Assembly: GCF_016612535.1 (NCBI RefSeq)
Contig: NZ_JAENXS010000004.1
Span: 124,001 to 188,000, forward strand
DNA: 64,000 bases
Source: Bradyrhizobium diazoefficiens
GTDB lineage: Bacteria > Pseudomonadota > Alphaproteobacteria > Rhizobiales > Xanthobacteraceae
Direction: 5' to 3'
Every line of letters begins with the position of its first letter. The first letter of the stretch is position 1. Both the position numbers and the translations under genes were made by a program. The notes beneath the pieces were generated by a model. It was not told the origin of the DNA, did no database searches, and saw nothing but the letters and a program-made list of their open reading frames with translations. Of this stretch, positions 36,469-62,068 are shown in pieces.

Positions 36469-36579
36469 CGGTAGGGGCATCTGACCGATCTGTTCAGTTC
36501 TGACCAGCTATCGATTGACTCGGCGCCCTTTCGTAACCACTTGATGGCCGTATCGACACAATCAATTGGCAGGGGAAGC

Positions 36580-41727: not shown

Positions 41728-42106
41728 CGAACGGCTGCAGGCTTGCACGAAACACCACTTGTGTTTCAGCAAACCGCACCATCTTGAGCTCGTGGCGACG
41801 CGTTCTGGGAACGCTTATCGCTTTAACCGCTCCAGGATGCGTGCACTTCATGAAGTACGAGCCGAATCGTGGCGCTCGCTGTGAGCTTACGTCATCAAAC
41901 TCGTTGCTCTCAATCACATTGCTCTGCCGAGCTGAGTAGTTTCAGAATCCACATTGAGGTCCGAATCTCGCGAGCAGCAAGAGAGCGACGCGGCTATCGT
42001 ATGCTCACGTTGGGATGGCTGCTCTGAGAGTTCCGGCGCGTGACGCATACTTACGATTGGCACGCACCATCCGATGTTGACGACAGTCGGCTATGGAGAT
42101 TGCGTT
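41728..42106. other. Promoter region of the acyl-CoA synthetase gene
   Basis: About 380 bases with no supported gene. It contains the likely promoter of the acyl-CoA synthetase gene, the first plus-strand gene of the metabolic cluster. Confidence 0.4.
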
Positions 42107-43732: not shown

Positions 43733-43810
43733 CAACCGTTTTACTCTATCAAAATGGCGAGCTCATCCCGCCGCCTATCGTACGTCCGGGCCGTCGAGGC
43801 TTCCCGATCC

Positions 43811-45761: not shown

Positions 45762-45855
45762 TGAATAGCTCCATGTCATTAGCCCACTCGCGAAGCACGG
45801 TCAGCGTTTCGCTCGCCGACCCGCCGCACGTCGGCTTTTAGGCGGCGCGGCTCGA

Positions 45856-47211: not shown

Positions 47212-47445
47212 GCACGGGCCTTTGCTAGCGAACTGCGACACCGACCCGAGAGCGTTCAGATGCTCTTCTCATCGTTCTCGCAGCACATCCGCTTGCTGCC
47301 TACCTGTACAATCCAACAGGGCCAGTTCGCGCGTCAGTTGCGCTAGATTTGGGTTGTCTCGGGGCACCGTTATTGAGCGATCCTACATGAGAATTGTCGA
47401 ACACGGGCGTCAGGCGGGACGGCGAGCGTGAGGAGGAACAGCTAG
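47212..47445. promoter_or_regulatory. Divergent promoter region between NMO1 and PLP-enzyme operons
   Basis: About 230 bases with both starts facing outward. The plus-strand gene has a strong AGGAGGAACAGCTAG ribosome-binding site. No clear operator palindrome was found by eye. Confidence 0.4.
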
Positions 47446-48675
47446 ATGCAAGCCGAAACGCAGAGCGACTTTCAATCAATATGTTGCGTGGATCAGACGC
47501 CGGGGAGTCGGACAACCCCTCATGTGCAGCCGATCTATGCGACATCGACATTTGTCTATCCACCCGCCGAAGAAGCGATGGAAATATTCGCCGAGTTGAA
47601 GGAGCGGCCGCATCTCTACAATCGCTGGGGAACGCCGAATTCCGCGCTTGTTGAACAGAAGATCGCAGCTCTCGAAAGCCATGGTCTCTCCGAAAATGGG
47701 AAGCCGTTGCAACTTGAAGCCGTTTTATTCAGTTCGGGAATGGCCGCTGTCTCGTCCCTGTTTCTGTCGTTGGGCCTCAAGCCCGGTGATCACATCGTGA
47801 CGCAGGGAAACATCTACGGGACCACAACCGAATTCCTGGACGCCATGCTCGCGCCGATTGGCGTCCGGATCATCTACGGCGACTTACATGACATGGAATG
47901 GGTCGAAAAGCAGCTCCGGGCGCATTCTCCGGTTCGTCTCATTTACCTCGAGACGCCGACAAATGCGACGGCACGATGTTACGACATTGCGCAACTGGCT
48001 CAGACTGCACACAAGTACGGCGCAAAATGCGCGGTAGATGGCACTTTGGGGACGCCTTATCTCCAGCAACCGTTTGCGCATGGTGCAGACTTCGTCGTTC
48101 ATTCCGCGACGAAATTCCTCAATGGCCACTCGAACTCCCTCACGGGCGTCGTCATCGGCCGCGACGGAGCGTTCGTCAAGACGGAAGTATGGAAGATGCG
48201 CAAGTTGCTTGGCGGCTGCGCCGGCTCCTTTGATGCGTGGTTGCTCAACATGGGGCTCAAGACGCTTCCCCTGCGCATGGAGCGACATTGCAACAACGCC
48301 ATGCGCATCGCCAAGGCCCTGGAGGGCCACGACGTGATACGTCGGGTGCGGTATCTTGGTCTGGAGGGACATCCCGACCACAAGATCGCCGCGCGTCAAA
48401 TGCGGGCATTCGGTGGCGTCCTCAGCGTCGAGGTGGCCGGAGGGCTCGAAGCTGCGGTACGCGTCCTGAGAAACGTACGGCGCTGCACGGTCACGGCGAC
48501 GCTGGGCGCGATGGACACCTTGATACAGCATCCCGCATCCATGACTCACGTCAAGGTGCCCAGAGAGCAGAGGGAGGCACACGAGATCACGGACGGCTTA
48601 CTTCGGCTTTCCGTCGGTATCGAGGATCCAGAGACGATCATAGCCGACCTTCGGCAAGCCCTCGAGGCATCGTAG
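47446..48675 (+). CDS. Cys/Met-metabolism PLP enzyme, gamma-lyase/synthase-like
   Basis: 409 residues of fold type I, related to methionine gamma-lyase and cystathionine gamma-synthase. It has YNRWGTPNSALVEQKIAALE (phosphate-binding Tyr/Arg), SSGMAAVSSLFLSL, ETPTNATARC and the PLP-lysine motif HSATKFLNGHSN. Two conserved blocks differ: the usual VDNT is VDGT, and GHSD is GHSN, so the substrate or reaction may be altered. Family reactions are gamma-elimination or replacement on C4 amino acids such as O-acylhomoserine. It begins an operon with an aminotransferase. Confidence 0.82.
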   Translation: MQAETQSDFQSICCVDQTPGSRTTPHVQPIYATSTFVYPPAEEAMEIFAELKERPHLYNRWGTPNSALVEQKIAALESHGLSENGKPLQLEAVLFSSGMAAVSSLFLSLGLKPGDHIVTQGNIYGTTTEFLDAMLAPIGVRIIYGDLHDMEWVEKQLRAHSPVRLIYLETPTNATARCYDIAQLAQTAHKYGAKCAVDGTLGTPYLQQPFAHGADFVVHSATKFLNGHSNSLTGVVIGRDGAFVKTEVWKMRKLLGGCAGSFDAWLLNMGLKTLPLRMERHCNNAMRIAKALEGHDVIRRVRYLGLEGHPDHKIAARQMRAFGGVLSVEVAGGLEAAVRVLRNVRRCTVTATLGAMDTLIQHPASMTHVKVPREQREAHEITDGLLRLSVGIEDPETIIADLRQALEAS

Positions 48676-48783
48676 AGCGTCGATCTGTGCGACTTCGGAC
48701 AACCACGGCTCCGCGCCTGCCGCAGACCAGGCGCGCCCCCGGTGATCACAAAATTGCTGCGATAACCACGACCGGAGATTTCG

Positions 48784-49929
48784 ATGCTGGATATCGTTTC
48801 AGTGCCTGGATCACAAATCATACAGGTTGCCAGAGCCTCGGCAATGTATCGTGACGTCGCGTTTCTTTGTTTTGGTGAGAGCGACGTCAGCAGTCCCGCA
48901 TCCGCCCGGGTGGCGCTCAAACGTGCGCTCGACGAGGGGGACACCCGATACCCCGATGTCCGCGGCCTCCCTGAACTTCGCGAAGCAATAGCCTCGTACT
49001 TGACCGATCTTCACGCGCTCCCGGTATCGGAAGGGCAGATACAAGTCGTTGCTTCAGGAATGGCGGCAATATCCGTTGCGTTGGCGGTTACAGCCCGCGC
49101 CGGTGATCGCGTCCTTGTGCATAGCCCGGTATGGCCGAATATCCTGAATGCAGCTCGACTGCGGCAAACAGAGGTGACGCAAATCGCACTTCGTGGGTAC
49201 GAGTCTGGCAAATTTGCACTGGATATGGATGAGCTTTCCTCGGCCTTGCCCGGGCACCGTGCATTCATCTTGAACTCGCCAAACAATCCTACCGGATGGA
49301 CGGCTTCGCGTGAGGAGCTCGAGGACATCCTTGCACTTTGCCGGCGCCACGGTGTGTGGCTGATTTCCGACGAGGTCTATTCGCGTCTGATCTATTCCGG
49401 CGCACGTGCGGCGCCATCACTTCTGGATATCATCTCGGGTGATGACCGCGTCGTTGTTTGTAATAGTTTTAGCAAGACTTGGGCGATGACGGGGTGGCGC
49501 GTGGGTTGGCTGGTATTGCCGAAGGGCCTTCGAGATCCCGTCTCGAACGTAGTAGAGGTGATCCATTCTGGGGTGGCTCCATTCTCCCAGCGCGGCGCGT
49601 TGGCAGCAATCACCGACCACCGCTTCGCGCGCGAGTTTGTCAAGCATTGTACGACGGGCCGGTCGCTAACGGCAGAAGCGTTCGCGGGACTGGATCGAAT
49701 AAGTTACTCCGTTCCCGATGGGAGCTTCTTCGCCTTCATTCGCGTCGATGGCATTCAAAACAGCCTCGAACTCGCCCTGAAGTTGGTCGAGAAGCATGGC
49801 GTTGCCGTTGCCCCGGGGAGCGCCTTCGGTCCCGCTGGCGAGGGGCATATCCGGATTTGTTTTGGGCTGGAAGGCGAACGGCTCGGTCATGCCCTCTCGC
49901 GACTTCGGACAGGCTTGCATGACGTTTGA
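48784..49929 (+). CDS. Class I/II PLP-dependent aminotransferase
   Basis: 381 residues with an aspartate-aminotransferase fold: TRYPDVRGLPELREAIASYL, NSPNNPTGWTASREEL (cofactor-binding Asn), WLISDEVYSRLIY (Asp to the PLP ring), the PLP-lysine motif SFSKTWAMTGWRVGWL, and HIRICFG carrying the carboxylate-binding Arg. The substrate is unknown. It is 108 bases after the gamma-lyase-like gene on the same strand, so the two may act in sequence on one amino acid. Confidence 0.85.
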   Translation: MLDIVSVPGSQIIQVARASAMYRDVAFLCFGESDVSSPASARVALKRALDEGDTRYPDVRGLPELREAIASYLTDLHALPVSEGQIQVVASGMAAISVALAVTARAGDRVLVHSPVWPNILNAARLRQTEVTQIALRGYESGKFALDMDELSSALPGHRAFILNSPNNPTGWTASREELEDILALCRRHGVWLISDEVYSRLIYSGARAAPSLLDIISGDDRVVVCNSFSKTWAMTGWRVGWLVLPKGLRDPVSNVVEVIHSGVAPFSQRGALAAITDHRFAREFVKHCTTGRSLTAEAFAGLDRISYSVPDGSFFAFIRVDGIQNSLELALKLVEKHGVAVAPGSAFGPAGEGHIRICFGLEGERLGHALSRLRTGLHDV

Positions 49930-50355
49930 TTGTTGCCTCCTGATGAAGCCTACTGCGGCAGGTGGTAGATCATTCTCTTCTTGGTCGCGGATGAGTGGCG
50001 CGATTGATCTTGGCTTCGAGCGCAATCGTGTTGCCGATCAGCGCCTGGACCGCGATCACGCCGCACATTCTCTTTGACGACATTACACTGCAGAGCAAGC
50101 TCCTCATTGTCCAATAAGCGGCTCGCGTGGAATGGTATCTTTGCTACATGCGCCGAATAGTGGATTCGGCGACAGCCCCGACTTCGCGCGAGGTCAAGGG
50201 CCAGGCCGCCACACAGCAACGATCGGCCGATCTGATAAGGCAATCTCTTGAGCTGCGGGTATGACCACGTCCGAAAACCGCCAGAAGTACCCGGTGCCTG
50301 CCGTTAAGAGAGGGAGAGGGCAAACCGACGGTTCTGACAGGAGATCAAGCGCCTC
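49930..50355. other. Intergenic region, nothing firm
   Basis: About 425 bases before the exporter gene. A minus-strand frame of about 37 codons (ALIGNTIALEAKIN) has some protein character but no context. A GGAGATC site precedes the exporter. Confidence 0.35.
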
Positions 50356-51261
50356 ATGCGATCGGAGACCGCCTTTGGGGTTCTGTGTGGCCTGGCAGCA
50401 GTCTTTATCTGGTCTGCATTTATTATCGCGTCCCGTTTTGGCGTGAGGGCACACCTGAGCCCGTGGGACATCGTCGCGATCCGATTTGCGGTGGCCGGGG
50501 CCGTCCTGCTGCCGTACCTGATCCGCAAAGGACTAGTTCTTGAGAGGCTCGGCTGGGCCGGCTTGGCCGCGATCGTCATCGGATGCGGAGCTCCCTGCGT
50601 TCTGCTTGTCAATGCGGGGCTGTTGTTCGCCCCGGCCGCTCAAGCGGGCGCACTTTATCCCGGCGGAACTCCTCTAATGGTTGCGGCGCTTGCGATCGTT
50701 TTTCTCGGCGAGACGCCATCCCCGTCCAAGACGATTGGGTTGTCTCTAATCGTCCTTGGGGCGCTCTGCCTCGTATTCGGGAACGGCGGCACCGTCGGAA
50801 CTCAGCAGAACCTCGGCCAGACGCTGTTCCTCGCAGCCGCATTCGTCTGGGGCGGCTACACGATCGCGATGCGCAAGGCGCAGCTGGATGGCTTGCACGC
50901 CGCCGCCATTGCAGCGGTCCTGTCAATGGCCCTCTATCTGCCTCCCTATCTGTACTTCAACGGATTAAGGGTCTTCTCGGCGCCGGCGACAGAACTGACG
51001 CTCCAAGCAGTTGTGCAGGGCCTGCTAACGGCTATCGTTGCGCTCCTACTGTACGGCCGAACCGTCAGGATTCTTGGCGCTACCCGCGCAGCTGCGTTTG
51101 TCGCTCTGACGCCCGTGGTCACCGCGATACTTTCGATCCCTACGCTCGGTGAATGGCCCTCTTTGGCAGACTGGGTATCCATCGCCATAATTTCCGCCGG
51201 CGTGTACGTCGTCGGCGGCGGTCGCCTGCCCGCGAGAATGGCGCGAGCCAATGCTGCATGA
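50356..51261 (+). CDS. EamA/DMT family exporter of the metabolic cluster
   Basis: 301 residues with ten hydrophobic helices in two EamA repeats; the second repeat begins near residue 150 (LGQTLFLAAAFVWGGYTIAM). Helix boundaries and Gly/Pro-rich turns are typical of the 10-TMS drug/metabolite exporters. Its position inside the cluster, after the PLP-enzyme pair, makes it the best candidate for export of, or self-protection against, the cluster product. It is unrelated in detail to the DMT protein at 17592. Confidence 0.87.
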   Translation: MRSETAFGVLCGLAAVFIWSAFIIASRFGVRAHLSPWDIVAIRFAVAGAVLLPYLIRKGLVLERLGWAGLAAIVIGCGAPCVLLVNAGLLFAPAAQAGALYPGGTPLMVAALAIVFLGETPSPSKTIGLSLIVLGALCLVFGNGGTVGTQQNLGQTLFLAAAFVWGGYTIAMRKAQLDGLHAAAIAAVLSMALYLPPYLYFNGLRVFSAPATELTLQAVVQGLLTAIVALLLYGRTVRILGATRAAAFVALTPVVTAILSIPTLGEWPSLADWVSIAIISAGVYVVGGGRLPARMARANAA

Positions 51262-51385
51262 TCTTAGGCATTTTTGCGCGGGATATTGTCTCAATGCAGG
51301 CTGACGCAGGCGTCAGCACTGTGCTTTAGAAAGCGTGCCGCATGGCGCGCGTTGAGATATGGGGACTCTGGCATGCGATGGAACG

Positions 51386-52117
51386 TTATACGTCGGAAAT
51401 TTGGTTAAACCGCATCGCTTCAACGACAGCCTGGGTGATGGTCTGCGCACCCAAGCGCGATCGGGCATCCTGGAGATGATACAATACCGTGCGCTCCGAT
51501 ATTCCCAATATGGTCCCAGTCTCTGACATCGTCTTTCCCCGAGCCGACCATGTCAGGCACTGCCGCTGCCTAAAGGTTAGCAGACGTGCTGTAGCCAAGT
51601 TCTGCCTGCTTGGACTCATTGCGAACCGTGCATGAAGTTGGAATGCGGTCAGATGAATCGCTGCAAGCGCGGTTTGGATTTCGGATTGTGTCGGTCGGTC
51701 GGCAGTTTTTTCGGCAAAGATCATGGCAGCGAATTTGCTGTATCCAACATAGACCGGGATCGCGAGTCCGTTCCGAATTCCGTGCCGAGCAGCTTCCTGT
51801 GTAAACCGATCGTCAGGAGTCAGTCGGCACGTGGCTTCATCCGAATCGCCCCAGAAGAATGGCATGCGCGCGATACGGGCATGTCGGACAATCGGATCCG
51901 CATCACTGAGCCTATCCTTGACGTAAAGTTGCGCGAGCGCATCTGGATAGGACGAAATAAGTTCAGGGTTGCCCCCGCTTATGCGCAAATAAGCGAACCA
52001 TTGGAAACCTAGGTCTCTTGTGATTTTGACTGCGACACCGCGAAGCTCGTCGACCGTACTTTCCAACGGGATCATGTCCCAGATATCTTCTAGGGCAGAC
52101 GAAATGCTCAAGCTCAT
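51386..52117 (-). CDS. LuxR-type regulator with autoinducer-binding domain, no cognate luxI seen
   Basis: 243 residues. Residues about 15-165 are an autoinducer-binding domain and 175-240 a LuxR helix-turn-helix (LTFRQRQCLTW, SERTVLYHLQDARSRLGAQT). By comparison with TraR, Tyr61, Asp70, Pro71 and Trp85 are present, but the position of Trp57 is Leu (SYPDALAQLYV). No luxI-like synthase is in the window, so it looks like an orphan receptor that may sense an atypical ligand. GAGGTGCGGGA precedes the ATG. It sits in the middle of the cluster and is its likely regulator. Confidence 0.88.
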   Translation of the reverse strand: MSLSISSALEDIWDMIPLESTVDELRGVAVKITRDLGFQWFAYLRISGGNPELISSYPDALAQLYVKDRLSDADPIVRHARIARMPFFWGDSDEATCRLTPDDRFTQEAARHGIRNGLAIPVYVGYSKFAAMIFAEKTADRPTQSEIQTALAAIHLTAFQLHARFAMSPSRQNLATARLLTFRQRQCLTWSARGKTMSETGTILGISERTVLYHLQDARSRLGAQTITQAVVEAMRFNQISDV

Positions 52118-52223
52118 TCCCGCACCTCGACGCCAATATCACTCGTTTGATCGCCGACGTTTTGTGTCGCCGACCTGCAAGCGCGTGTATCGCCACCACC
52201 CGGCTTATACTTACGAGCCAAAT

Positions 52224-52241
52224 GTGACCGCCGGTTGTCAC
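52224..52241. promoter_or_regulatory. 18-bp dyad upstream of luxR
   Basis: GTGACCGCCGGTTGTCAC is an 18-bp imperfect palindrome (7 of 9 positions per half), about 107 bases upstream of the luxR start. Its size fits a LuxR-family binding site, possibly for autoregulation. The sequence was found by eye only. Confidence 0.4.
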
Positions 52242-52361
52242 TTTATGATACCGCATCCCACGCGCGAATTTGAATCCGGCTGAATTTTGTTGCTTGGTGT
52301 GTGTCGAATGCCAACACCACCCTCGATCGGCTAAGTCAAAGGAGTCTGTTGCGAGGCAGAC

Positions 52362-53423
52362 TTATCGCTCAGCGATTGCGCGCGCTGGAATCATCTTCCA
52401 ACGATAGCCTTTCAGTCGCCGATTCTCAGAAAAGCTGAGCAGTCCAAAGGGCGACTGCCAGGCATTCCCAAGGATGTATCTTAGGACCGCCAAGGGATCA
52501 TCAGACCCGACTTCCCGCCAAGCGACGGCGAGCGCGCGGGCAGCAAGATAGCTGGTCTCGAAGTAGGGGCCGGCTGATCTTCCGAGCAGGCGCCGCGCTC
52601 GGTGACGCAACTCGGTGACCTGCCGATCTATGAGCATACCGGACTGCTTCTCAAGGAAAGCGACCGAGCAGCGGGAGGCAAGGTCACTCTCCCGGAAAAG
52701 AGAAGGCGTGAAGCAGTCGTCGGACATTAGGATCTCACCGAGCGCGACGGCACTAAGAGCGCCGGTAAACAGTCGCGCAGCAAAGTCGTGAGGTCCGAGG
52801 ATCAACAACACATCACGCGCCTCGACAGCCACGGGTAGCCTGCCGGGCGGTTCTTCATTGAAGTACAAGGCGGTGAGCTTTCGGCAACATGGTGCAAGCC
52901 GCGGCACGAGGCCCGCTGCCAGGCGAGCTCCATAGGTGCCTGTCTGGCTGAGCAGTAGGATTGATCGGCCGAGCTCAATCGCCGCCCGCGCGAGGCACTC
53001 CAACTGCTCGTCGTCGGTTCCGAATAGCTGTACGGTCGTTGTCGATACTGACGTGCAAAGGTCGGGTGCGGATGTTCCTGGCGCCAGAAAGACTATCCCC
53101 CGATCGCCATAGATACGACTGGCAGCAAGCGCAGCTGGTGTGCTGAAGTGGCCAACAACGTATTTAGTCCCGCTGGCAGCGATTTCACTTGCGACTTCCT
53201 GGGCACGCCTCCCGGAGCGCTGGTCGTTGTAGTAAAAGGTGCGGGCTGACGTGCCTTCATCGCTGAGCCCTAGCTCGATAGCGACTCGGAGGTCTGCCGC
53301 GTGCGGACCAGCAGTGCCGCAGATGGCGAGGAGAGGAGCGGCGACCGCTTGCGTTTCGGTTGGCTCATGCGCCGTGGTGGCGACGCCTTCCAAATCGAAT
53401 GTCACTGCCCTCTCCGTTTTCAT
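52362..53423 (-). CDS. Cytosolic type I periplasmic-binding-fold protein
   Basis: 353 residues from ATG 53423 (MKTERAVTFDLEGV), 25 bases after the MetRS-like stop. The protein follows the Leu/Ile/Val-binding/AmiC pattern (Peripla_BP_6): DLRVAIELGLSDEG, YVVGHFSTPAALAASRIYGD, FLAPGTSAPDL, LLLSQTGTYGARLAAGL and a C-terminal lobe. There is no signal peptide and no ABC permease or ATPase nearby, so it should be cytosolic. Roles could be a ligand sensor, carrier or product-binding self-protection protein. As last gene of the hydrazine-synthetase-like operon, it probably binds a pathway amino acid or product. Confidence 0.7.
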   Translation of the reverse strand: MKTERAVTFDLEGVATTAHEPTETQAVAAPLLAICGTAGPHAADLRVAIELGLSDEGTSARTFYYNDQRSGRRAQEVASEIAASGTKYVVGHFSTPAALAASRIYGDRGIVFLAPGTSAPDLCTSVSTTTVQLFGTDDEQLECLARAAIELGRSILLLSQTGTYGARLAAGLVPRLAPCCRKLTALYFNEEPPGRLPVAVEARDVLLILGPHDFAARLFTGALSAVALGEILMSDDCFTPSLFRESDLASRCSVAFLEKQSGMLIDRQVTELRHRARRLLGRSAGPYFETSYLAARALAVAWREVGSDDPLAVLRYILGNAWQSPFGLLSFSENRRLKGYRWKMIPARAIAER

Positions 53424-53448
53424 TCGTGCCAACTGTCCGGCGCGGACC

Positions 53449-55023
53449 CTACGCGCCGGCGGCGTAGCGAGCCTCCGTCCTGGGATAGGCTGACTCCACG
53501 TCCTCTCGTACTTGGAACAACCCATCGGGGATTGGTCTCGGGTGGCTCTCGGGAGCCATATCCAACAGATTTAAATCCTTGCCCGTGAGCGCCCAGAAAA
53601 GTCGTTGAGCGTCGATTGGCATCAGAGGGAAGGCGGCTTGAGCAAACGCCTTCAGCGCGAAAGCAAGATCACTTGCACTGGAACCCGGCGCACAAAGCTC
53701 TGCCCGAATATACCCGAGGAAATGCAGGAGATCTTCGGCTGCTTGCCGTAGGTGGAAGCGGTCCAGTGAAAGACTGTCAAGAATTCGGGTGACCGCCGCC
53801 GACGCGGCGTGACGTACTTCGGTGGAGACCGCGGCATTTCGGTCAGCGCCTGCCGAGAGCCTGTCGTACGCTTGGTGGACCTCAAGCCAAGGTTGTGACA
53901 GTGCTGCGTCAGTCTGCGTGACCATCTCGGCTTCGTTGAAATTCGCTCGCTCGAATCCGGGAGAATTGAGCAGGGTGTGAAACCTGATGCAGTCAGTCGA
54001 ATGACGGGTTGCAAGATCGCGCGCCCAAATGACGTGGTTTCGACTCGTTGAGAACTTGCTGTGGTCGAGGTTGTAGAACTCGTTTGTGATGGACCCGGAT
54101 GGCAGCCAGTCCTGCTCTCCGCTGGCGATGAGCAGCGCGGCGTGAACGATTGCGTAGAAATAGGTGTTGTCGAATCCCAGGAAGTTCACCACCTTTGGTG
54201 TGGGATATCCGTCTCGCGAACGACGCTTGTGATCCAGCAACTGATGGACGACCAGTTCTGGCCAGGCGTTGATGACTTGACCGGGGAATTCGTCATGTTG
54301 TATCGGAATGCCCCAACTGCCTTCGACCGTGACGGGAAAATCAGGCAGCCGCGCAGCAAGCGCATCGGCCACAAGCCATCCGTAACGGGGGCGGTATCGC
54401 CCGTTACCTCGGTAGAACTCGCGAATTTTTTCGCGAAATCGCTCCATCTCGAATACGAGTAGGGGCACCATCCGCACCTGCAACCGACGGCTGCCCGTCA
54501 CCGTATCGCGCGGCGCGATGAGGCTGTTGGGATCGCATAAGAAGCCGCACGACTCGCAGATGCCACATTTGCATTCGTCAAGGCACTTCGGGCAGTAGCC
54601 GGAGACTCCCGCCTCGTCCAAAGCCATGCCGCGGTCGGGTGAGAAGAACGTCGGAAACTCCTTTCGTACGAGGATGCCCCGGCGGTAGAGCTCGAGAAAG
54701 AACTGGCGCACCTGTTCGCATTCAGCGGCATTTGGTATCGCGAACTCGCTCACTTCGACTTGATACAAGGCCATGGTCTCGTGAATATCGGCCGAGCATT
54801 GTTGCGCAAGCTCCGACGGCTGCACCTTCCGGCGCTCTGCGGTAACGCGGACATACGACTGGTTCACGTCGCTGAACGTCGTATAGGCATAACTCCCCCC
54901 GCGTAGTTTCAGCTGCTTCACGAATGCATCAGCGGCAAGATAAGGGCCGCTGAGGTGACCCACATGAAGCCCGCCATTTGGCGTAGGCGGTGGAACGGTG
55001 ACGATCCAATCGTTGTTAAGCAT
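53449..55023 (-). CDS. Stand-alone MetRS-like ligase, putative hydrazine synthetase subunit
   Basis: 524 residues resembling the catalytic half of class I methionyl-tRNA synthetase. The HIGH motif is H20-V-G-H23 after PPPTPNGGL; a Cys cluster (C144, C147, C151, C153, C156, C159, C163) forms the zinc-knuckle insert; FLGFDNTYFYAIVHAALL corresponds to the amino-acid pocket helix; KFSTS at 323-327 replaces KMSKS. The C-terminal part is short for a housekeeping MetRS. In Spb40, Tri28 and PyrN-type enzymes such a domain, fused to a cupin, activates an amino acid and joins it to an N-hydroxylated amine to form an N-N bond. Here cupin and N-hydroxylase are separate genes just upstream. Confidence 0.85.
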   Translation of the reverse strand: MLNNDWIVTVPPPTPNGGLHVGHLSGPYLAADAFVKQLKLRGGSYAYTTFSDVNQSYVRVTAERRKVQPSELAQQCSADIHETMALYQVEVSEFAIPNAAECEQVRQFFLELYRRGILVRKEFPTFFSPDRGMALDEAGVSGYCPKCLDECKCGICESCGFLCDPNSLIAPRDTVTGSRRLQVRMVPLLVFEMERFREKIREFYRGNGRYRPRYGWLVADALAARLPDFPVTVEGSWGIPIQHDEFPGQVINAWPELVVHQLLDHKRRSRDGYPTPKVVNFLGFDNTYFYAIVHAALLIASGEQDWLPSGSITNEFYNLDHSKFSTSRNHVIWARDLATRHSTDCIRFHTLLNSPGFERANFNEAEMVTQTDAALSQPWLEVHQAYDRLSAGADRNAAVSTEVRHAASAAVTRILDSLSLDRFHLRQAAEDLLHFLGYIRAELCAPGSSASDLAFALKAFAQAAFPLMPIDAQRLFWALTGKDLNLLDMAPESHPRPIPDGLFQVREDVESAYPRTEARYAAGA

Positions 55024-55051
55024 CGCTTCTTCCCCTTTCTCTGTTCAATAT

Positions 55052-55432
55052 TCACTGTCCGCTGCCGCCGAGATCCCAATATATGTCCACCATCACAAAT
55101 GGATCCGACCCGGCGTTGCGTAGGGAGTGCTTGGCGGATCGAGGAATGTAGGCCACGTCGGTCGGATAGAGCTCGGTCGTATTGCCGTCGACTTCCAAGG
55201 TTGCGCTTCCGCCGATCACAATGAAGGTTTCCTCTTCGTCGTGATCGTGCAGATCGACCTGTTTGCCGGGCTCCAGGGTGACGATCATGCAGCCAAATTC
55301 GGTCAGGGGGCGCTTGGTATTCGCGACCTCCCTCCAGGGAAACAGGCGACGGATCCTACAGTTATACTCGTTGGTACAAGTGCTGGACGCGCCACGGCGC
55401 ACGAGCCGCTCTACACCATTCTCTTCAGGCAC
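55052..55432 (-). CDS. Stand-alone cupin, putative hydrazine synthetase subunit
   Basis: 126 residues from a GTG start at 55432, chosen because ACGGAG lies eight bases before it and it follows the NMO2 stop by 16 bases; the frame is open further into NMO2 but would then overlap it. It is a single cupin: motif 1 ligands H62, H64, E68 (LHDHDEEET) and motif 2 H102 (IPRSAKHSLRN), a complete metal site. In known hydrazine synthetases the zinc-binding cupin domain carries out the rearrangement that makes the N-N bond. The gene ends 28 bases before the MetRS-like gene, and together they equal the fused enzyme. Confidence 0.85.
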   Translation of the reverse strand: MPEENGVERLVRRGASSTCTNEYNCRIRRLFPWREVANTKRPLTEFGCMIVTLEPGKQVDLHDHDEEETFIVIGGSATLEVDGNTTELYPTDVAYIPRSAKHSLRNAGSDPFVMVDIYWDLGGSGQ

Positions 55433-55448
55433 TGGACTTGCTCCGTTT

Positions 55449-56798
55449 TTAGCCGACGGCGACCGCCGCAGGCAGTTGGCGAGAACCCGCTGGGTGGACC
55501 TGCGAAGAAAGGTATTCGATGAGCGAGCCGGCAATCATCTGCGAGCGCAGGGAAAGAAGGCTGAATGAGCCGGCATCGCCGAAGCCGTGGCTCGACTCGC
55601 ATAGCCCATTGATAAAGATCGGCAGCGGACGGGAGCCATCCATCATTCGATAATCGCGCGACAACGAGAGGACGGCGCGCTGATCATCGAGGGTCGCCGC
55701 GACCTGTCGCAGGAGAAGCGGAAATCGTTCTTCGTTTTCGCGCACGCCGAAGTTTCGAAAGCCTGTTGCGAGCACGACCGCATCGACCGACAGACCGGTC
55801 CGCCCGAAGCTTCCACGATCCTCCAGCGTCAAATCGAACGCGCCGTTGTTCGCCTGGCCTACCGCGACGATGTTGCAGTTTGTACGGAGCGATATTTGAT
55901 GCTGGCCATCCAGACCGTGCTCGTAGAGCTTGCAATAGAGTTGATCGATGACATCCTGATCCGCTGATCCATAGTTGCTGCGGCGTAACTCTGCCCAGAG
56001 CTCTCGCCGCCTGAAGTCGCTATATTGGTAGAACTCATCGACAAATTCCGGGAAGTAAATCTCCTCGGTAAACGGACTGGTATCCTTTAGCTGATAGCCG
56101 AAGCCCCGATGCAAGTTGAGTATCTGGATCTGCGGCGTGACGCTCGCCAGATCGAGTGTGATCTCAACCGCACTTTGGCTGCCGCCGACGACGCAGACCG
56201 ACTTAACTGCCCCCTGTCGCCGCCATCGCTCCCGAGCCGGCAGATAGTCTGTGAAGTGAACGACACGATCCCCGAGGTGCGGCGAAAACACGTCTGGGAT
56301 CGCCGGAGTACGGCCTGGCGCGAACGATATCGCTCGCGCCCGAATGGTACGGCCGTCAGCCAAATGCAGCGCCGCAATGGGCGATGCCCGCTGCTGGGAG
56401 ACGTCCTCCAGCGAAACATCCACCACGTCAGACTGGTATGACACGAGATGGGTGAAGTGATTGGCAACCCATCTCACGTAGGCTGCATAATCTTTTCGTA
56501 ACGGAAAGGCTGTGGGCAGATTGAGATACTGAAAGAGACGGTTCTCGGACTTGAGAAAATTGAGAAAGCTGAATCGGCTTGAAGGGTTGCGTGGCGTAAC
56601 GAAATCCCGCAACGGATTGTGCTGTATGTCGGCACCGTCGAGCAACATTCCGGGTTGCCAGTCTGGCGTAGTGCGACGTTCCAGAAATAATGCGGACCCT
56701 TCCCATCCGATCTCGTCGAGAGCGACGGTCAAGCCAATATTTGCCGGACCGAACCCGATCCCAACAAGATCGTAGAGGTCTGTTTGTTGTCTGGTCAT
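55449..56798 (-). CDS. Lysine/ornithine N-monooxygenase-like flavoenzyme, NMO2
   Basis: 449 residues from ATG 56798 (MTRQQTDLYDLVGIGFGPAN), with AGAGGA upstream. It has FAD motif GIGFGPANIGL at 13-23, DWQPGMLLDGADIQHNPLRD and the RFSFLNFLK block as in IucD/PvdA/SidA, NADPH motif VVGGSQSAVEITLDL near 190, ATGFRN near 345 and INGLCESSHGFGDAGSFS near 400. It N-hydroxylates a side-chain amine using NADPH, O2 and FAD. Its position between a diaminobutyrate-type aminotransferase and the cupin/MetRS pair makes it the Spb38/Tri26-equivalent of this operon. Whether its substrate is lysine or 2,4-diaminobutyrate cannot be read from sequence. Confidence 0.9.
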   Translation of the reverse strand: MTRQQTDLYDLVGIGFGPANIGLTVALDEIGWEGSALFLERRTTPDWQPGMLLDGADIQHNPLRDFVTPRNPSSRFSFLNFLKSENRLFQYLNLPTAFPLRKDYAAYVRWVANHFTHLVSYQSDVVDVSLEDVSQQRASPIAALHLADGRTIRARAISFAPGRTPAIPDVFSPHLGDRVVHFTDYLPARERWRRQGAVKSVCVVGGSQSAVEITLDLASVTPQIQILNLHRGFGYQLKDTSPFTEEIYFPEFVDEFYQYSDFRRRELWAELRRSNYGSADQDVIDQLYCKLYEHGLDGQHQISLRTNCNIVAVGQANNGAFDLTLEDRGSFGRTGLSVDAVVLATGFRNFGVRENEERFPLLLRQVAATLDDQRAVLSLSRDYRMMDGSRPLPIFINGLCESSHGFGDAGSFSLLSLRSQMIAGSLIEYLSSQVHPAGSRQLPAAVAVG

Positions 56799-56921
56799 CT
56801 GGAGAATTTCCTCTGGGCAGCCACCGCGGTCAGCAGACACACGACGTTGGTCGAAAAGTAGCGGCTGCATTGATTCCTACCCAAGTCCGTCGGCTCTGCC
56901 GCCGACGCGAAGGACCGAACG

Positions 56922-58214
56922 CTAGCTCGCCCGCCGCCGTAACGGCTCTGCAACACCATCCTTCGCCGGACACTCCAGCTCGATAATCTCCTCCAACCGG
57001 CCAAGAGCCTCGGTCAGCGTCGCTGATGGAATGTTGAGCGCCGGCAGGAATTTGAGGACGTGATCCCGACCACCACTTACCTCGATGATGACATCGCGTT
57101 CGAATGCCTTTTTGGCGACGACAGTCGCCAGGCCCTCATCAGCGAAAGCCAAGCCTCGCAGCAAGCCGCGGCCCCGGGCTTCAGCGGCGCTAGGGGGCAA
57201 GCGTTCGATGACCGCCGAAAGCCACTCGTTGAGGATGGCGATGTTGCGGTCCAGACCTTGCAAGAACTCTGGTTGTCTCCAGTATGCGAGCGCCACTCGG
57301 CCCGCGACGAACGCAAGGTTATGGCCCCGAAACGTTCCGTTATGCTCACCGGGATCGAACGCATCGTGGCTCGGCTTGATCAGCAATAAAGACATTGGCA
57401 GGCCGTAGCCGCTGATTGATTTCGAGAGGCAAACGATGTCGGGATAAATGCCTGCCGCCTCAAAACTCAAGAAGTTTCCTGTTCGACCGCACCCCGCCTG
57501 GATATCATCCACGATCAACAAACTGCCGTGCTTTCTCGCGATACCCGCCAGGCGTCTCAACCACTCGTCGTCCGCGGCGTTCACGCCTCCTTCGCCCTGA
57601 ACGGTCTCGACGATAAACGCCGCGGGCGGGTCGAAACCACTGCTGGGATCACTCAAAAGGGTAGAGATCAGATCGATCGTATCTACTTTGGCGCCGAAAT
57701 AGTTGCAGTACGGGTAACGATCGCCGAGGGAAAGAGGAATACCGGCACCACGACGTTTGCGTGTAGAGCCCGTAGCGGCGAGCGCACCCAGGGACATGCC
57801 ATGGAAGCCGTTTGTGAAGCACGCAACGTTGGCTCTCCTCGTCACCTTGCGCGCAAGCTTCAAAGCTGCTTCGACAGCATTCGTCCCGGTCGGCCCCGGA
57901 AACATCAGCCTATAATCGAGTTGCTTCGGACGGAGGATCAGGGTGTTGAAGTCGGACAGAAAGTTGTTCTTCGCTTCCGTACGAAGATCCAGCCCATGCA
58001 CGATTCCGTCGGCAGCCAGATAATCCAACAAATGCTGTTTGATTTCCTGGGGGTTGTGCCCATAGTTGAGCGCTCCCGCTCCCGAGAACAGATCGATATA
58101 CTGACGGCCGTTCGCATCCCACATGAAGGAACCGCGCCCACGCGAGAACTCTGTCGGAAATGATCGGCAATAGTAGCGGACGTTCGACTCAAGCTCGTCG
58201 CTCACGTGCTGCAT
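56922..58214 (-). CDS. Diaminobutyrate-2-oxoglutarate aminotransferase (EctB type)
   Basis: 430 residues from ATG 58214, with GGGGAGAG before it. It is a class III aminotransferase closely following EctB/Dat: FSGAGALNYGHNPQEIKQHL, DGIVHGLDLRTEAKNNFL, FPGPTGTNAVEAALKLARKV, FTNGFHGMSLGALAATGSTR, VETVQGEGGVNAADDEWLRR, VDDIQAGCGRTGNF and the PLP-lysine motif LSKSISGYGLP. The reaction is L-aspartate semialdehyde plus glutamate to L-2,4-diaminobutyrate. There is no ectA or ectC, so this is not an ectoine operon. As first gene of the operon it most simply supplies diaminobutyrate to the pathway. Confidence 0.93.
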   Translation of the reverse strand: MQHVSDELESNVRYYCRSFPTEFSRGRGSFMWDANGRQYIDLFSGAGALNYGHNPQEIKQHLLDYLAADGIVHGLDLRTEAKNNFLSDFNTLILRPKQLDYRLMFPGPTGTNAVEAALKLARKVTRRANVACFTNGFHGMSLGALAATGSTRKRRGAGIPLSLGDRYPYCNYFGAKVDTIDLISTLLSDPSSGFDPPAAFIVETVQGEGGVNAADDEWLRRLAGIARKHGSLLIVDDIQAGCGRTGNFLSFEAAGIYPDIVCLSKSISGYGLPMSLLLIKPSHDAFDPGEHNGTFRGHNLAFVAGRVALAYWRQPEFLQGLDRNIAILNEWLSAVIERLPPSAAEARGRGLLRGLAFADEGLATVVAKKAFERDVIIEVSGGRDHVLKFLPALNIPSATLTEALGRLEEIIELECPAKDGVAEPLRRRAS

Positions 58215-58599
58215 TCTTCTCTCCCCGTATGATCCTCGTTCGTGGCGTGCAATCGGCTGCGTTCTTTGCTCACGAGCTTCATTGTGGCTGGCGTCGTTAA
58301 TGCCGAGCAGACAAGAGCACATCGCAATCTGGATTGCCCCTGTCTGAAGCTACAGGTGCCGCCGGGACGATGACGAGGCGGTCATAGATGTCGGCGGCAT
58401 TGATTGATCGCGTCCGAAAACCGCGAGATCGATTTGCGACAACACGCTAGCATCGAGCGTGACGACGAATGCGCAGCGAACGCTTGTGCTCGGCTTCCTG
58501 GTTGGATGTTTGCACAATGCAGGGACTTGGGTCGCGTACGAAGGTGACGGCTGCGCTCGCGCTCCGCATAACAACTGATTGGAACGCCTGGAGGATAGC
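58215..58599. promoter_or_regulatory. Divergent control region of the two right-hand operons
   Basis: About 385 bases between the aminotransferase (minus) and thioesterase (plus) starts. It contains a 6-7-6 palindrome CACGCTAGCATCGAGCGTG at 58443-58461, a candidate site for the cluster LuxR regulator or another factor. No gene is supported inside it. Confidence 0.4.
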
Positions 58600-59046
58600 A
58601 TGGATCAAGAAGTTAGAGATCGGATCGCAGACTGCAGCTTCCGCATCTACCATCGCGACATCGATATGCGGGGATTGGTGCATACCGGAACCTACGTCGC
58701 GTATTTCGAGTCGGCCGCGAACGACATGCTTCGACGTTCAGGCGTCCTTGGGTTCTTTAAGCCGCAGCCTGGTGCCTTTGCGTGGGTCGTGCGGCGGGTC
58801 GAGCTAACGTTTCACCGCCCTCTCGCAATCGATGACTTGCTCCATGTGAGCGTTACCGTAGCTCGTGTCGGAAAGAGTAGCCTGCTCTTCGACGGTCGAA
58901 TTGATCGTGACGGAGACGCCCTCGGTGACGATCCCAGCGTGTCAGCGTCAATCGTATGGGTTTACGTCGATGCGAGCGCGCAGGGGGCCGCGCCTATCCC
59001 CGACGAGGCGCGGGCAGCTCTTCTCCCTCTCGCGTCGACCGGTTGA
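58600..59046 (+). CDS. Hotdog-fold acyl-CoA thioesterase (4HBT family), TE1
   Basis: 148 residues from ATG 58600, with GGAGGA four bases upstream. The family core is FRIYHRDIDMRGLVHTGTYV, then FESAANDMLRRSG; the Asp of YxxTDxxG-type enzymes is represented by DIDMRG. It hydrolyses a small or aromatic acyl-CoA. It leads an operon with a second thioesterase and two acyl-CoA dehydrogenases. Confidence 0.82.
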   Translation: MDQEVRDRIADCSFRIYHRDIDMRGLVHTGTYVAYFESAANDMLRRSGVLGFFKPQPGAFAWVVRRVELTFHRPLAIDDLLHVSVTVARVGKSSLLFDGRIDRDGDALGDDPSVSASIVWVYVDASAQGAAPIPDEARAALLPLASTG

Positions 59047-59109
59047 TGGCGCAACGTTTCGAGCCGAGTACAAGCGAAATTGATATGACGACAGGGAAAG
59101 GGCACCAAA

Positions 59110-59538
59110 ATGGATCAGCAACCGAACAGCAAGAGCTATCCCCTGATGAGCGATGAAAAGCTGCGTTATGCGGACACGGACCGTTTGGGACACATAAATA
59201 ATACCGTGTTCGCCATGCTATTCGAGACAGGTTATGTTGAGCTGCTCTACGGCGACCGCGCTCCCAAAATTGAAGTGCAAAGCCTGTTCAGGGTTTCTCG
59301 GCTGGCGATCGAGTTCGTGGGTGAAACGGTGTGGCCCGGCGAGGTCCAGATCGGCACCCGTGTCAGCGAGATTGCCGACAGCTCCGTTGAGCTCGAACAG
59401 GCCATGTTTCAGGAGGATCGCTGTGTCGCGACGGCCAAATGCGCCGTTGTTCTGTTTGACAGGGCCACGAGCCGCCCGTGCTCGTTGTCTCCGCTCGTTC
59501 GGCAGCATCTCGCGCAATCTATGAGGGTCGAAAACTAG
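59110..59538 (+). CDS. Hotdog-fold acyl-CoA thioesterase (4HBT family), TE2
   Basis: 142 residues with the classical 4HBT opening LRYADTDRLGHINNTVFAML, where the Asp of DTDRLGHINN is the catalytic-position residue. It is more canonical than TE1, and the two share the fold but differ along their length. Two adjacent thioesterases suggest a heteromer or two release steps. AAAGGGCACC lies before the ATG. Confidence 0.85.
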   Translation: MDQQPNSKSYPLMSDEKLRYADTDRLGHINNTVFAMLFETGYVELLYGDRAPKIEVQSLFRVSRLAIEFVGETVWPGEVQIGTRVSEIADSSVELEQAMFQEDRCVATAKCAVVLFDRATSRPCSLSPLVRQHLAQSMRVEN

Positions 59539-59639
59539 GCTGCTCGGCAACTTTCGAGCGCTGCTGGGGTCTGCCCGAATCTGGGGCCGGCTGAACAGTG
59601 ACAGCGGGCGGGATGTCCACGAGCCAAGGTTTCCGTGCA

Positions 59640-60857
59640 ATGTACCTTCAGTTGACACCGAGAGAGCTTACGTTTCGCGATGAAGTACGCGCCTTTTTGT
59701 CGAGTTCCGTGCCGCGAGACATTCGTGAGAAGATGCTAAACGACGGTCGCCTCTCGAAGGAGGACATCGTACGGTGGCAACGGATACTCAATGTCAAGGG
59801 ATGGGCTGTCCCACACTGGCCGGTGGAGTGGGGCGGCACTAATTGGACGGCAGTAGAGCGCTACATTTTTCGCGAGGAGATGCAAGCGTTTCCAGCCCCT
59901 CCCCCGCTCGATTTTGCCGTCGACATGATAGGCCCCGTGCTCATTGCTCATGGCTCAGATGAGCAGAAGCGACAATTTCTCCCGCGAATTGCGAACCTGG
60001 ACGACTGGTGGTGCCAAGGGTTTTCAGAACCTGGTGCGGGATCCGATCTTGCTGCGTTGAAGACGGCGGCCCGCCGCGATGGTGATGAATACGTTCTAAA
60101 CGGGCAGAAGATTTGGACAACCATGGCGCACTATGCCGATTGGATGTTCTGCCTGGTCCGAACCGCCCGTGGGGAGAAGAAGCAGAACGGAATTTCATTC
60201 CTGCTGGTGAATATGAAATCAGAGGGCATTACCGTACGCCCGATCATTACGATGGAGGGCGACCACGAAGTAAACGAAGTGTTCTTTGATGATGTGCGGG
60301 TTCCCGCTGCGAATCTCGTCGGGGAGCAGGATCGTGGGTGGGACTATGCAAAATTCCTGCTCAGCAACGAGCGAGCGACCATCGCGCGAGTCGGTGTATC
60401 GAAGGCCCGCATACGTCGAATTAAGGAGCTTGCAGCTTCGGAGTATTGTATGGGTCGGCCAATGATCGAGAACCGTCGGTTTCGCGAGAAACTAGCCGCG
60501 GTAGAGGTCGAACTCAAGGCACTCGAGATGACGCAGCTGCGCCTCGTTGCCGGCGAGGAAGGCAACGGCAGGACTGGCTCGTCGGACGCCACAGCTTCGT
60601 TGCTGAAAATCAAGGGCGCGGAGATTCAACAGGCGACGACGGAGCTGCTGGTGGAGCTTGCGGGCCACTTTGCCATGCCATTCATTGACAACGAAAGCCA
60701 GGAGCTCGTCGGCGATTGCTGGAATGGTCCTTTTGTTACACCAGAGTGGGCGGCTCGAGCGGCGCCCACTTACTTTCATTGGCGCAAGATGTCGATTTAC
60801 GGCGGCTCCGATGAGATTCAGCGCAACGTCCTCGCGAGGGGAATCTTTGGCAGATAG
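59640..60857 (+). CDS. Acyl-CoA dehydrogenase, catalytic-type subunit (ACAD1)
   Basis: About 405 residues from ATG 59640 (MYLQLTPRELTFRDEVRAFL); an ATG at 59613 is in frame. FAD and substrate blocks: WCQGFSEPGAGSDLAALKT, NGQKIWTTMAHYADWMFCLV, VFFDDVRVPAANLVGEQDRG. At the C-terminus IYGGSDEIQRNVLARGI carries Gly where medium-chain enzymes have the catalytic Glu, but LLSNERATIA has Glu at the alternative (isovaleryl-CoA-dehydrogenase-like) position. It oxidises an acyl-CoA to the enoyl-CoA, passing electrons to ETF. It pairs with ACAD2, 11 bases downstream. Confidence 0.9.
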   Translation: MYLQLTPRELTFRDEVRAFLSSSVPRDIREKMLNDGRLSKEDIVRWQRILNVKGWAVPHWPVEWGGTNWTAVERYIFREEMQAFPAPPPLDFAVDMIGPVLIAHGSDEQKRQFLPRIANLDDWWCQGFSEPGAGSDLAALKTAARRDGDEYVLNGQKIWTTMAHYADWMFCLVRTARGEKKQNGISFLLVNMKSEGITVRPIITMEGDHEVNEVFFDDVRVPAANLVGEQDRGWDYAKFLLSNERATIARVGVSKARIRRIKELAASEYCMGRPMIENRRFREKLAAVEVELKALEMTQLRLVAGEEGNGRTGSSDATASLLKIKGAEIQQATTELLVELAGHFAMPFIDNESQELVGDCWNGPFVTPEWAARAAPTYFHWRKMSIYGGSDEIQRNVLARGIFGR

Positions 60858-60868
60858 GACGGACAATC

Positions 60869-62068
60869 ATGGATTTCCGGCTTACAGACGAGCAGCGCTT
60901 GCTGAAGGATACCTTGAACCGACTTATTGCCGAACAGTATCCATTTGATCGGCGCAGGCAGTATCAATCTGAAAAAGACGGGTGGAGCCGCGCGGCGTGG
61001 GCACGCTTGGCTGACCTGGGTATTTTGGGGGTCTTGCTCCCGGAGCGCTACGGCGGCGCAGGGGGCGGTCCGATCGAAGCCATGATCATCATGAGCGCTT
61101 TCGGCCGCGGCCTCCTTCTTGAACCCTTTTTTGCGACGGTGGTGCTTGGGGGAAATCTTCTCACGCTGGGTGCCAGCGAAGCGCAAAAGGTGCTGCTGTT
61201 GCCAGCCTTGGCGAGTGGAAAGCTCTTGCTGGGATTTGCGCACACGGAGCGGCATTCGCGACATGACCTGGCAAACGTCGCCACCAGGGCGAGACGGGAT
61301 GGCTTGCAGTGGGTATTGGACGGCGAAAAATGCGTCGTTCTCCATGGCGACGTCGCAGACAAGCTATTGGTCTCGGCTCGATCTGGTGGCGAGGATCAGT
61401 ACGATGAGGACGGCATAAGTCTATTCTTGGTTGATGCTGAGGCCTCCGGCGTCAGCCGGAGAGACTACCGGACCCAGGATGGATTGCGGGCAGCGTCGGT
61501 GTCGTTAACGGACGTTCATGTCAGTTCTGATGCACTGATCGGGACCTCCGACGCGGCTTTCCCGCTGATCGAGGAGGTCGCTCACCACGCCATTGCGGCC
61601 ATTTGTGCCGAGATGGTCGGAGCCATGGAGGAGATGCAGGAACAGACGGTCGAATATCTCAAAACGCGTGTTCAGTTCGGCGCGCCATTGAGCAAGTTTC
61701 AGGTGCTCCAACATCGGGCCGTCGACATGCTGATGGCGCTTGAGCAGGCCAGGAGCATGGCGATGTTCGCGACCATGATGCTCGGCGAGAAGGATTTGAC
61801 CGAACGCCGTCGGGCGATGTCAGCGGCCAAGATTCAACTCGGCCGCTCGAGTCGCTTTGTCGGTCAGCAGGCCATCCAGCTCCATGGTGGCATCGGCATG
61901 ACCATGGATTGCAAAATTGGGCACTACTTCAAACGGACGACGATGCTGGATCTGCAATTCGGCGGCGCCGATCTTCACTTGCAGGAGCTTGCGGAGATGG
62001 GAGGGCTGATCTCACCGGGCGCGCCGTTACCCCGCATGGATCGTCCTATCGTGGGGCGGTCGCTATAA
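60869..62068 (+). CDS. Acyl-CoA dehydrogenase, probable non-catalytic partner (ACAD2)
   Basis: 399 residues, starting 11 bases after ACAD1. The fold is complete (RLTDEQRLLKDTLNRLI; LLPERYGGAGGGPIEAMIIM; QFGAPLSKFQVLQHRAVDML; IQLHGGIGMTMDCKIGHYFK). Neither catalytic Glu position is kept: the loop reads IEEVAHHAIAAIC and the C-terminus lacks an IYEGT-like motif (MLDLQFGGADLHLQEL). This matches heteromeric alpha2beta2 acyl-CoA dehydrogenases, as in actinobacterial steroid side-chain breakdown, where one subunit is catalytic. The two genes probably make one enzyme. Confidence 0.87.
   Translation: MDFRLTDEQRLLKDTLNRLIAEQYPFDRRRQYQSEKDGWSRAAWARLADLGILGVLLPERYGGAGGGPIEAMIIMSAFGRGLLLEPFFATVVLGGNLLTLGASEAQKVLLLPALASGKLLLGFAHTERHSRHDLANVATRARRDGLQWVLDGEKCVVLHGDVADKLLVSARSGGEDQYDEDGISLFLVDAEASGVSRRDYRTQDGLRAASVSLTDVHVSSDALIGTSDAAFPLIEEVAHHAIAAICAEMVGAMEEMQEQTVEYLKTRVQFGAPLSKFQVLQHRAVDMLMALEQARSMAMFATMMLGEKDLTERRRAMSAAKIQLGRSSRFVGQQAIQLHGGIGMTMDCKIGHYFKRTTMLDLQFGGADLHLQELAEMGGLISPGAPLPRMDRPIVGRSL

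Follow-up and report, generated by a model that had tools for sequence, protein, structure and literature searches.

In a 64,000-nucleotide stretch of Bradyrhizobium diazoefficiens DNA (hereafter the window, from a genome of 7.99 Mb), the genes at 53449-56798 include those for what is, on well-supported sequence grounds and at the family level, a two-polypeptide hydrazine synthetase composed of a cupin and a protein resembling methionyl-tRNA synthetase (MetRS). This synthetase is likely the basis of a gene cluster for a hydrazine metabolite, whose core spans 43.8-58.3 kb and which possibly extends to ~62 kb. The synthetase genes, the flavin N-hydroxylase gene (NMO1) of the same cassette and the gene directly upstream of NMO1 are as follows.

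53449..55023, minus strand: MetRS-like amino-acid-activating protein of the hydrazine-synthetase family (tRNA-synt_1g of Pfam, 9.6e-52; best solved structure the PyrN C-terminal domain 9l8v; tree)
55052..55432, minus strand: single-domain cupin, predicted to carry out the N-N bond-forming rearrangement (metal site H62/H64/E68/H102)
55449..56798, minus strand: NMO1, IucD/SidA/PvdA-type flavin N-hydroxylase, predicted L-diaminobutyrate N4-hydroxylase (PF13434, 1.1e-85; R/E at the presumed PvdA K69/N254 positions)
56922..58322, minus strand: EctB-type L-2,4-diaminobutyrate (DABA) aminotransferase for DABA supply (TIGR02407, 573.9 bits, cut-off 552.2; near NMO1-type genes in related genomes)

The three consecutive minus-strand genes are separated by 16 bases (NMO1/cupin) and 28 bases (cupin/MetRS-like) as read from the sequence, in agreement with the original prediction, whose proposal of a two-polypeptide hydrazine synthetase is supported by sequence, tree and predicted fold. 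NMO1 has 449 aa when counted from an inner ATG (the open reading frame, ORF, opens at 56870) and its Pfam match is Lys_Orn_oxgnase; the cupin has a GTG start, 126 aa and a Cupin_2 match of 1.5e-16 in a Pfam scan run on the longer ORF, and the MetRS-like protein has 524 aa. Since the same cassette is present in dozens of loci, a chance arrangement was excluded, and the linked flavin N-hydroxylase expected of the synthetase family is provided by NMO1 just upstream of the cupin. NMO1 and NMO2, a second flavin N-hydroxylase in the window, are members of the N-hydroxylase family of siderophore pathways, and EctB belongs to ectoine biosynthesis, which could point to a hydroxamate siderophore or ectoine pathway lying beside an unrelated cupin and a spare MetRS. 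Such a pathway is, however, very improbable: the NMO-cupin-MetRS-like cassette recurs across phyla, ectoine synthase (EctC) is not among the Pfam matches of the cupin (Cupin_2, MannoseP_isomer, Auxin_BP and Cupin_3), and no GNAT acyltransferase, IucA/IucC, condensation or carrier domain was found in the 30 window proteins scanned, out of a larger number of ORFs.

The MetRS-like protein of the hydrazine synthetase carries the class I HIGH- and KMSKS-type motifs as HVGH and KFSTS, both noted in the original prediction, with the catalytic lysine at K323; H20, G22, H23 and K323-S327 did not vary across 33 aligned sequences, one of which is that of the window. PyrN carries KFSTG in place of KFSTS, and its K458A variant had negligible activity (Zhao 2021, PMC8664883). 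The C-terminal domain of PyrN (9l8v) was the best solved match both by sequence and by fold, and in the tree the protein grouped apart from the tRNA-charging MetRS. A drug-resistant second MetRS protecting the producer might be suspected from a paralogue beside a biosynthetic cluster in a genome that has another MetRS, but is extremely improbable, as the nearest solved relative is PyrN and not a MetRS, the APW motif is lost, and the paralogue was reported to occur “without exception” with a cupin and an N-hydroxylase (PMC2922099). The closest named homologue of this synthetase subunit is from Bradyrhizobium sp. ORS 375 (80%); a match above 36% was found in no other genome among the 149 searched (own included), and none of the plasmid or phage records listed or counted, from which those of the own genome may be excluded, had a match of at least 60% identity. 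The residue after the PPTPNG motif was Gly in all 18 rows of the window's clade, Asp in all 77 other readable MetRS-like rows and Glu in PyrN (102 rows, of which 2 were unreadable and 5 outgroup rows differ). The acidic residue is a regularity seen in this analysis, and no published or defining criterion, from which the window protein departs. The Gly does not go along with the DABA aminotransferase, as DABA loci outside the clade retain Asp, and the Asp-to-Gly change offers a cheap and testable marker of one synthetase clade.

The predicted metal site of the cupin was confirmed at the ligand positions, H62, H64, E68 and H102 being invariant in 26 of 26 aligned cupins, with a spacing equal to that of PyrN and RHS1 and fitting the (H/D)-H-E-H pattern. 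Against RHS1 (5uqp), a characterised stand-alone N-N cupin, it aligned with an E value of 1e-4 at all four ligand positions, E68 corresponding to RHS1 E69. The outcomes named as refuting in the original prediction did not arise in the comparisons made: the MetRS-like protein stands apart from tRNA-charging MetRS, and the cupin aligns with an N-N cupin, RHS1. The fold search gave 4rd7, 4mv2 and general cupins as nearest; 5uqp was not among the best 50 matches listed, which has no bearing either way. A stable interface between the cupin and the MetRS-like protein is not necessary, since two PyrN variants that were inactive singly yielded product once mixed (Zhao 2021, PMC8664883). As a separate observation, 4rd7 and 4mv2 (plu4264) are solved cupins without a functional name and the closest folds to the window cupin, 4rd7 having the RLxPW motif too, and both may be hydrazine-synthetase cupins.

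The split into two polypeptides and its proteobacterial setting had been put forward as new, and this part of the original prediction is not supported. Cupin and MetRS-like protein were separate ORFs in 66 of 83 loci and fused in 7, the other 10 being assignable to neither class, several of them with MetRS-like ORFs of a length compatible with fusion. These loci were the best 80 of 369 confirmed relatives together with three from other genomes, a sample that leans to relatives of the split protein, and within it the split synthetase is the common arrangement and not an oddity. Split pairs, and proteobacterial and rhizobial members, are already in print: stand-alone cupins beside the MetRS paralogue were described in 2010, with Sinorhizobium meliloti and Mesorhizobium loti named (PMC2922099); RHS1 of Rhodococcus jostii RHA1 has a stand-alone MetRS-like partner (Zhao 2021, PMC8664883); and a 2024 review gives many two-gene pairs and a member from Mesorhizobium japonicum R7A (PMC11705231). 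On these prior accounts the split was rejected as a novelty, and the cluster is another member of a known synthetase family; no description of this particular cluster was found in the literature searched, most subscription papers being outside its reach. A different fusion was seen in P0068 (620 aa), a MetRS-like/cupin protein with a C-terminal cupin, the opposite of PyrN and Spb40, where the cupin is N-terminal.

The DABA supply gene of an Apy-like pathway is represented by the EctB-type aminotransferase gene directly upstream of NMO1, which scores above the TIGR02407 cut-off. NMO1 had a match of at least 45% in 6 of 265 genus genomes, own included; in all five others a DABA aminotransferase gene was adjacent or one small ORF away, and cupin and MetRS-like genes were found in one of these five, none being seen in the 18-20 kb fetched from each of the other four. 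At the positions that we take to be K69 and N254 of PvdA, the offset coming from the alignment, NMO1 has Arg and Glu. The loci supplied 82 N-hydroxylases besides the two of the window: 21 come from loci that have a DABA aminotransferase (identity of at least 40%), and 18 of these carry Arg with Asp or Glu, against 2 of the 61 from elsewhere (Fisher p 4e-13 with relatedness ignored, hence a correlation and no proof). DABA N-hydroxylation has chemical precedent, as Apy11 of actinopyridazinone biosynthesis hydroxylates DABA and not lysine (PMC11705231). The aminotransferase linkage and the residue code together point to N4-hydroxy-diaminobutyrate as the predicted product of NMO1. This refines the original prediction, which cited N6-hydroxylysine as the donor in known systems: here N4-hydroxy-DABA is the likelier hydroxylamine donor.

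The same synthetase could nevertheless be fed by another diamine (lysine, ornithine, 1,3-diaminopropane or putrescine), with the DABA aminotransferase serving another step. Several characterised members use N6-hydroxylysine, and N4-hydroxy-putrescine and N3-hydroxy-1,3-diaminopropane (our reading of N3-OH-DAPN) are within the reported scope (PMC11705231); at locus L009, moreover, the NMO1 code is present and no DABA aminotransferase is linked to it in the DNA examined. Another diamine is, however, unlikely, as NMO1 lacks the Lys/Asn pair carried by 36 of the 61 N-hydroxylases whose loci have no close DABA aminotransferase, and NMO1-type genes accompany EctB-type genes in all five other genus genomes, including the four without cupin and MetRS-like genes in the DNA fetched. 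The Arg/acidic pair may mark DABA N-hydroxylases as a cheap and testable rule, and both sequence rules, this one and the Asp-to-Gly change, could aid the choice of N-N biocatalysts.

In three loci of the same genus (L130, L131 and L132), an NMO1-type hydroxylase bearing the Arg/Asp pair lies close to a DABA aminotransferase and to a protein of PF04299 (piperazate synthase/NohD family), which in L131 and L132 is fused to a major facilitator superfamily transporter; no cupin/MetRS-like match was found in the 20 kb fetched at these loci. A PF04299 gene is present in three of the four NMO1/DABA-aminotransferase loci without cupin and MetRS-like genes, and the L130 protein scored 87.9 bits with the solved “N-hydroxylamine dehydratase” NohD versus 78.2 bits with piperazate synthase. 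No paper using that enzyme name was found in the literature searched. The L130-L132 loci are candidates for a second route from N4-hydroxy-DABA. Production of cyclic hydrazines through a piperazate-synthase relative at the NMO1/DABA-aminotransferase loci without cupin and MetRS-like genes may be considered, but the better NohD score of the L130 protein speaks against it.

For three further genes of the window an association with the synthetase was examined.

43811..45112, minus strand: flavin adenine dinucleotide (FAD)-dependent DAO-family oxidoreductase, candidate hydrazine-cleaving oxidase (PF01266, 2e-56)
45856..47241, minus strand: NMO2, second flavin N-hydroxylase (PF13434, 9e-84)
59598..60857, plus strand: first acyl-CoA dehydrogenase (Pfam; source records call its homologues pimeloyl-CoA dehydrogenase large subunit)

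DAO homologues of ~33% identity adjoin MetRS/NMO genes in L002 and L020, and seven of the eight closest loci have a DAO-type oxidase no more than 10 kb from the core (L002, L003, L007 and L009 by Pfam; L005, L006 and L008 by clustering with Pfam-tested proteins); none was noticed in the eighth, L004, where part of the ORFs were scanned. Spb39 and Apy10, of the same family as Tri27, are reported to cleave the hydrazine of their pathways (PMC11705231), and by analogy the DAO oxidase is a candidate for this step. The best solved match of NMO2 was 5cqf (328 bits). Its R/N pair is also that of the sole hydroxylase found in L015, L016, L026, L029 and L045, so the cluster appears to carry two hydrazine-type N-hydroxylases. 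Using contig size as a proxy, NMO2 and MetRS-like homologues were found on contigs of identical size (81458 and 56298 bases, both ORS 375, and 30003, 35851, 46818 and 142331 bases), and four of five MetRS-like homologues of at least 60% on contigs of at least 15 kb had an NMO2 partner among the matches listed. The first acyl-CoA dehydrogenase shared identical contig sizes of 11320, 56298 and 46818 bases with MetRS-like homologues, and sizes 81458, 30003, 35851 and 142331 were absent from its matches listed. That NMO2 instead of NMO1 feeds the synthetase, or that both feed it different hydroxylamines, would agree with the R/N enzymes being sole hydroxylases near cupin and MetRS-like genes in the five loci above and with the apparent travelling of NMO2 with the MetRS-like gene. 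We regard it as quite improbable, because the operon of the cupin and MetRS-like genes also includes NMO1 and the DABA aminotransferase, whereas NMO2 is ~6 kb off, beyond opposite-strand genes.

With NMO1 as the preferred source of the hydroxylamine, a pathway can be proposed; protein families, active-site residues, gene order and association come from comparison, and from them we infer every chemical step. The EctB-type aminotransferase would make DABA, NMO1 would hydroxylate its N4, and the MetRS-like protein would adenylate a second amino acid and hand it to the hydroxylamine oxygen, giving an unstable ester. The metal-bound cupin, with E68 in the place of RHS1 E69, would rearrange this ester to form the N-N bond, and the FAD oxidase would cut one C-N bond to leave a free hydrazine. 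NMO2 and the pyridoxal phosphate (PLP) enzymes, perhaps together with the thioesterases and acyl-CoA dehydrogenases, would tailor it afterwards. A fuller version is offered tentatively, as a possibility that falls well short of probable, in which the DABA-derived hydrazine from a Gly-clade split synthetase undergoes a second N-oxygenation by NMO2 and a CoA-bound desaturation, leading to a hydrazone, diazo, azoxy or pyridazinone compound. The Gly after PPTPNG would then mean a different amino-acid or hydroxylamine pocket, and desaturation would proceed on coenzyme A through a ligase, the acyl-CoA dehydrogenases and hotdog thioesterases, in place of the carrier protein reported for hydrazone-forming pathways such as those of azaserine, triacsin and dob (PMC13061610). 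The odds of this fuller version are lowered by the four NMO2/MetRS-like contig sizes missing from the acyl-CoA dehydrogenase matches listed.

Several observations weigh against the hydrazine-metabolite cluster as read here. The MetRS-like tree was a quick build with long branches, and the top solved sequence matches of the cupin were 4rd7, oxalate decarboxylases and 4mv2, with RHS1 (5uqp) lower. The Arg/acidic code is confounded by kinship, its bearers possibly forming one clade; L009 and L024 (the latter an 8.9-kb contig) carry it without a DABA aminotransferase in the DNA examined, L045 has a DABA aminotransferase gene but an NMO2-type (R/N) hydroxylase, and L007 and L008 each carry an additional R/S hydroxylase. 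The DAO gene is 8 kb away from the core with other genes intervening, and 5 of 10 NMO2 homologues (at least 55%, contigs of at least 15 kb) had no MetRS-like partner among the matches listed. As equal contig size is a mere proxy for the same contig, with the best 120 matches per search and proteins clustered at 90%, NMO2 is graded as likely to travel with the synthetase and the first acyl-CoA dehydrogenase as a less sure companion.

The remaining genes of the cluster and its possible extensions are given below.

42074..43732, plus strand: AMP-binding (acyl-CoA/acid) ligase, possible cluster member (PF00501, 2.1e-58)
45102..45779, minus strand: glutathione S-transferase-like protein (GST_N, 3.9e-11)
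47446..48675, plus strand: Cys/Met-metabolism PLP enzyme, gamma-lyase/synthase-like (PF01053, 1.2e-111)
48784..49929, plus strand: PLP aminotransferase class I/II (PF00155, 1.3e-60)
50356..51261, plus strand: EamA transporter, possible exporter (PF00892)
51386..52117, minus strand: LuxR-type regulator with autoinducer-binding domain (PF03472, 2.1e-25)
52362..53423, minus strand: periplasmic-binding-protein-like protein (PF13458, 2.4e-8; inner ATG, ORF opens at 53525; homologues in 9 other loci)
58579..59046, plus strand: hotdog thioesterase 1, possible cluster member (PF03061, 2.7e-13)
59110..59538, plus strand: hotdog thioesterase 2, possible cluster member (PF13279, 6.7e-12)
60869..62068, plus strand: second acyl-CoA dehydrogenase, possible cluster member (Pfam scan)

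The periplasmic-binding-protein-like gene starts 25 bases past the MetRS-like stop, and no signal peptide was seen by eye. Its homologues (L002-L004, L007-L009, L015, L016 and L027) lie beside synthetase genes in Proteobacteria and Bacillota, and visual inspection of their readable N-termini likewise gave no obvious signal peptide; the protein may have a binding or sensing role within the cytoplasm. The best match of the second acyl-CoA dehydrogenase beyond its own copy was 57-58% (40 genus genomes). Near the core of nine loci (L003, L004, L007-L009, L027, L030, L040 and L042) a family of ~180-220 aa was noted, DUF3291 in the sole member scanned (L004), and the same clustering found no homologue of it at 41-63.5 kb of the window. 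In an Agrobacterium relative (L006:11540-14491) an HpaB-type oxygenase, a glutathione S-transferase and a 2-oxoglutarate/iron dioxygenase follow immediately after the MetRS-like gene.

The cluster lies in a stretch of atypical composition.

36000..62000, no strand: low-GC stretch holding the cluster (composition profile at 2-kb resolution, 57-60% GC)

Outside it the GC content is mostly 61-66% at 1-35 kb (58-59% at 8-12 kb and 26-28 kb) and 63% beyond 62 kb. The left part of the window encodes a MobA/MobL relaxase, a TraG-type coupling protein, ArdC and a ParB-domain protein; the relaxase (69-3407) is a 1112-aa relaxase-helicase whose C-terminal part is a BID domain (Bep_C_terminal in Pfam). 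In 264 other genus genomes nothing matched NMO2 above 40%, and the Cys/Met-type PLP enzyme none at E<=1e-100 in 97 other genus genomes (98 with its own). The cluster region is likely to be acquired DNA. The mobile element of the original prediction is only partly backed, by the atypical GC content and the adjoining conjugation genes, and no element ends were found. A 16-base direct repeat located by script at 36907 and 62659 was considered as island ends and treated as chance, since its right copy is inside the ku reading frame and no ku-like sequence surrounds the left copy. No tRNA was found in the window or 20 kb on each side, and integrases were not systematically searched. The Ku ORF (62551-63180) looks cut off where the low-GC stretch ends on the right, the residues from ~62595 being un-Ku-like and the Pfam match ending before the model end.

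When compared with characterised systems, the window resembles PyrN (pyrazomycin) and the RHS1 system (PMC8664883) in the cupin ligand pattern, the MetRS-like fold (best solved match) and the linked N-hydroxylase, and the RHS1 system is split as that of the window. PyrN and RHS1 join N6-hydroxylysine and glutamate, whereas the window adds the DABA aminotransferase and the Arg/Glu of NMO1, and after the PTPNG motif it has Gly where PyrN has Glu. Apy9/Apy10/Apy11 of actinopyridazinone (PMC11705231) would share with the window the N4-hydroxy-DABA hydroxylamine and an FAD oxidase that presumably cleaves the hydrazine, a likeness drawn from descriptions and not from sequences. The second amino acid of Apy9 is Ala, and the second N-hydroxylase and the acyl-CoA dehydrogenases of the window are not mentioned for apy in the accessible part of that review. 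Dpn5-6, Bac1-2, Col1-2, Kit1-2, Cor1-2 and Ral1-2 (PMC11705231 Table 2), for which that review text names no substrates, are two-gene synthetases as in the window, and Q8KGM6 of M. japonicum R7A is likewise a rhizobial member (PMC11705231). A Colwellia protein (P0060) groups with the clade of the window and is possibly a member of the Col pair, and L040 is from the Corallococcus strain named in the same table. The MetRS paralogue with cupin and lysine N6-monooxygenase was predicted in 2010 to be a peptide ligase (PMC2922099), and the main text of that account, searched for the term, does not mention an aminotransferase such as that of the window. The presence of a hydrazine-forming module in a probable rhizobium invites the search for a symbiosis- or competition-related metabolite, and the interest of the cluster relative to these systems lies in its setting, in which a DABA aminotransferase, a second N-hydroxylase and an FAD oxidase are found around a known type of synthetase.

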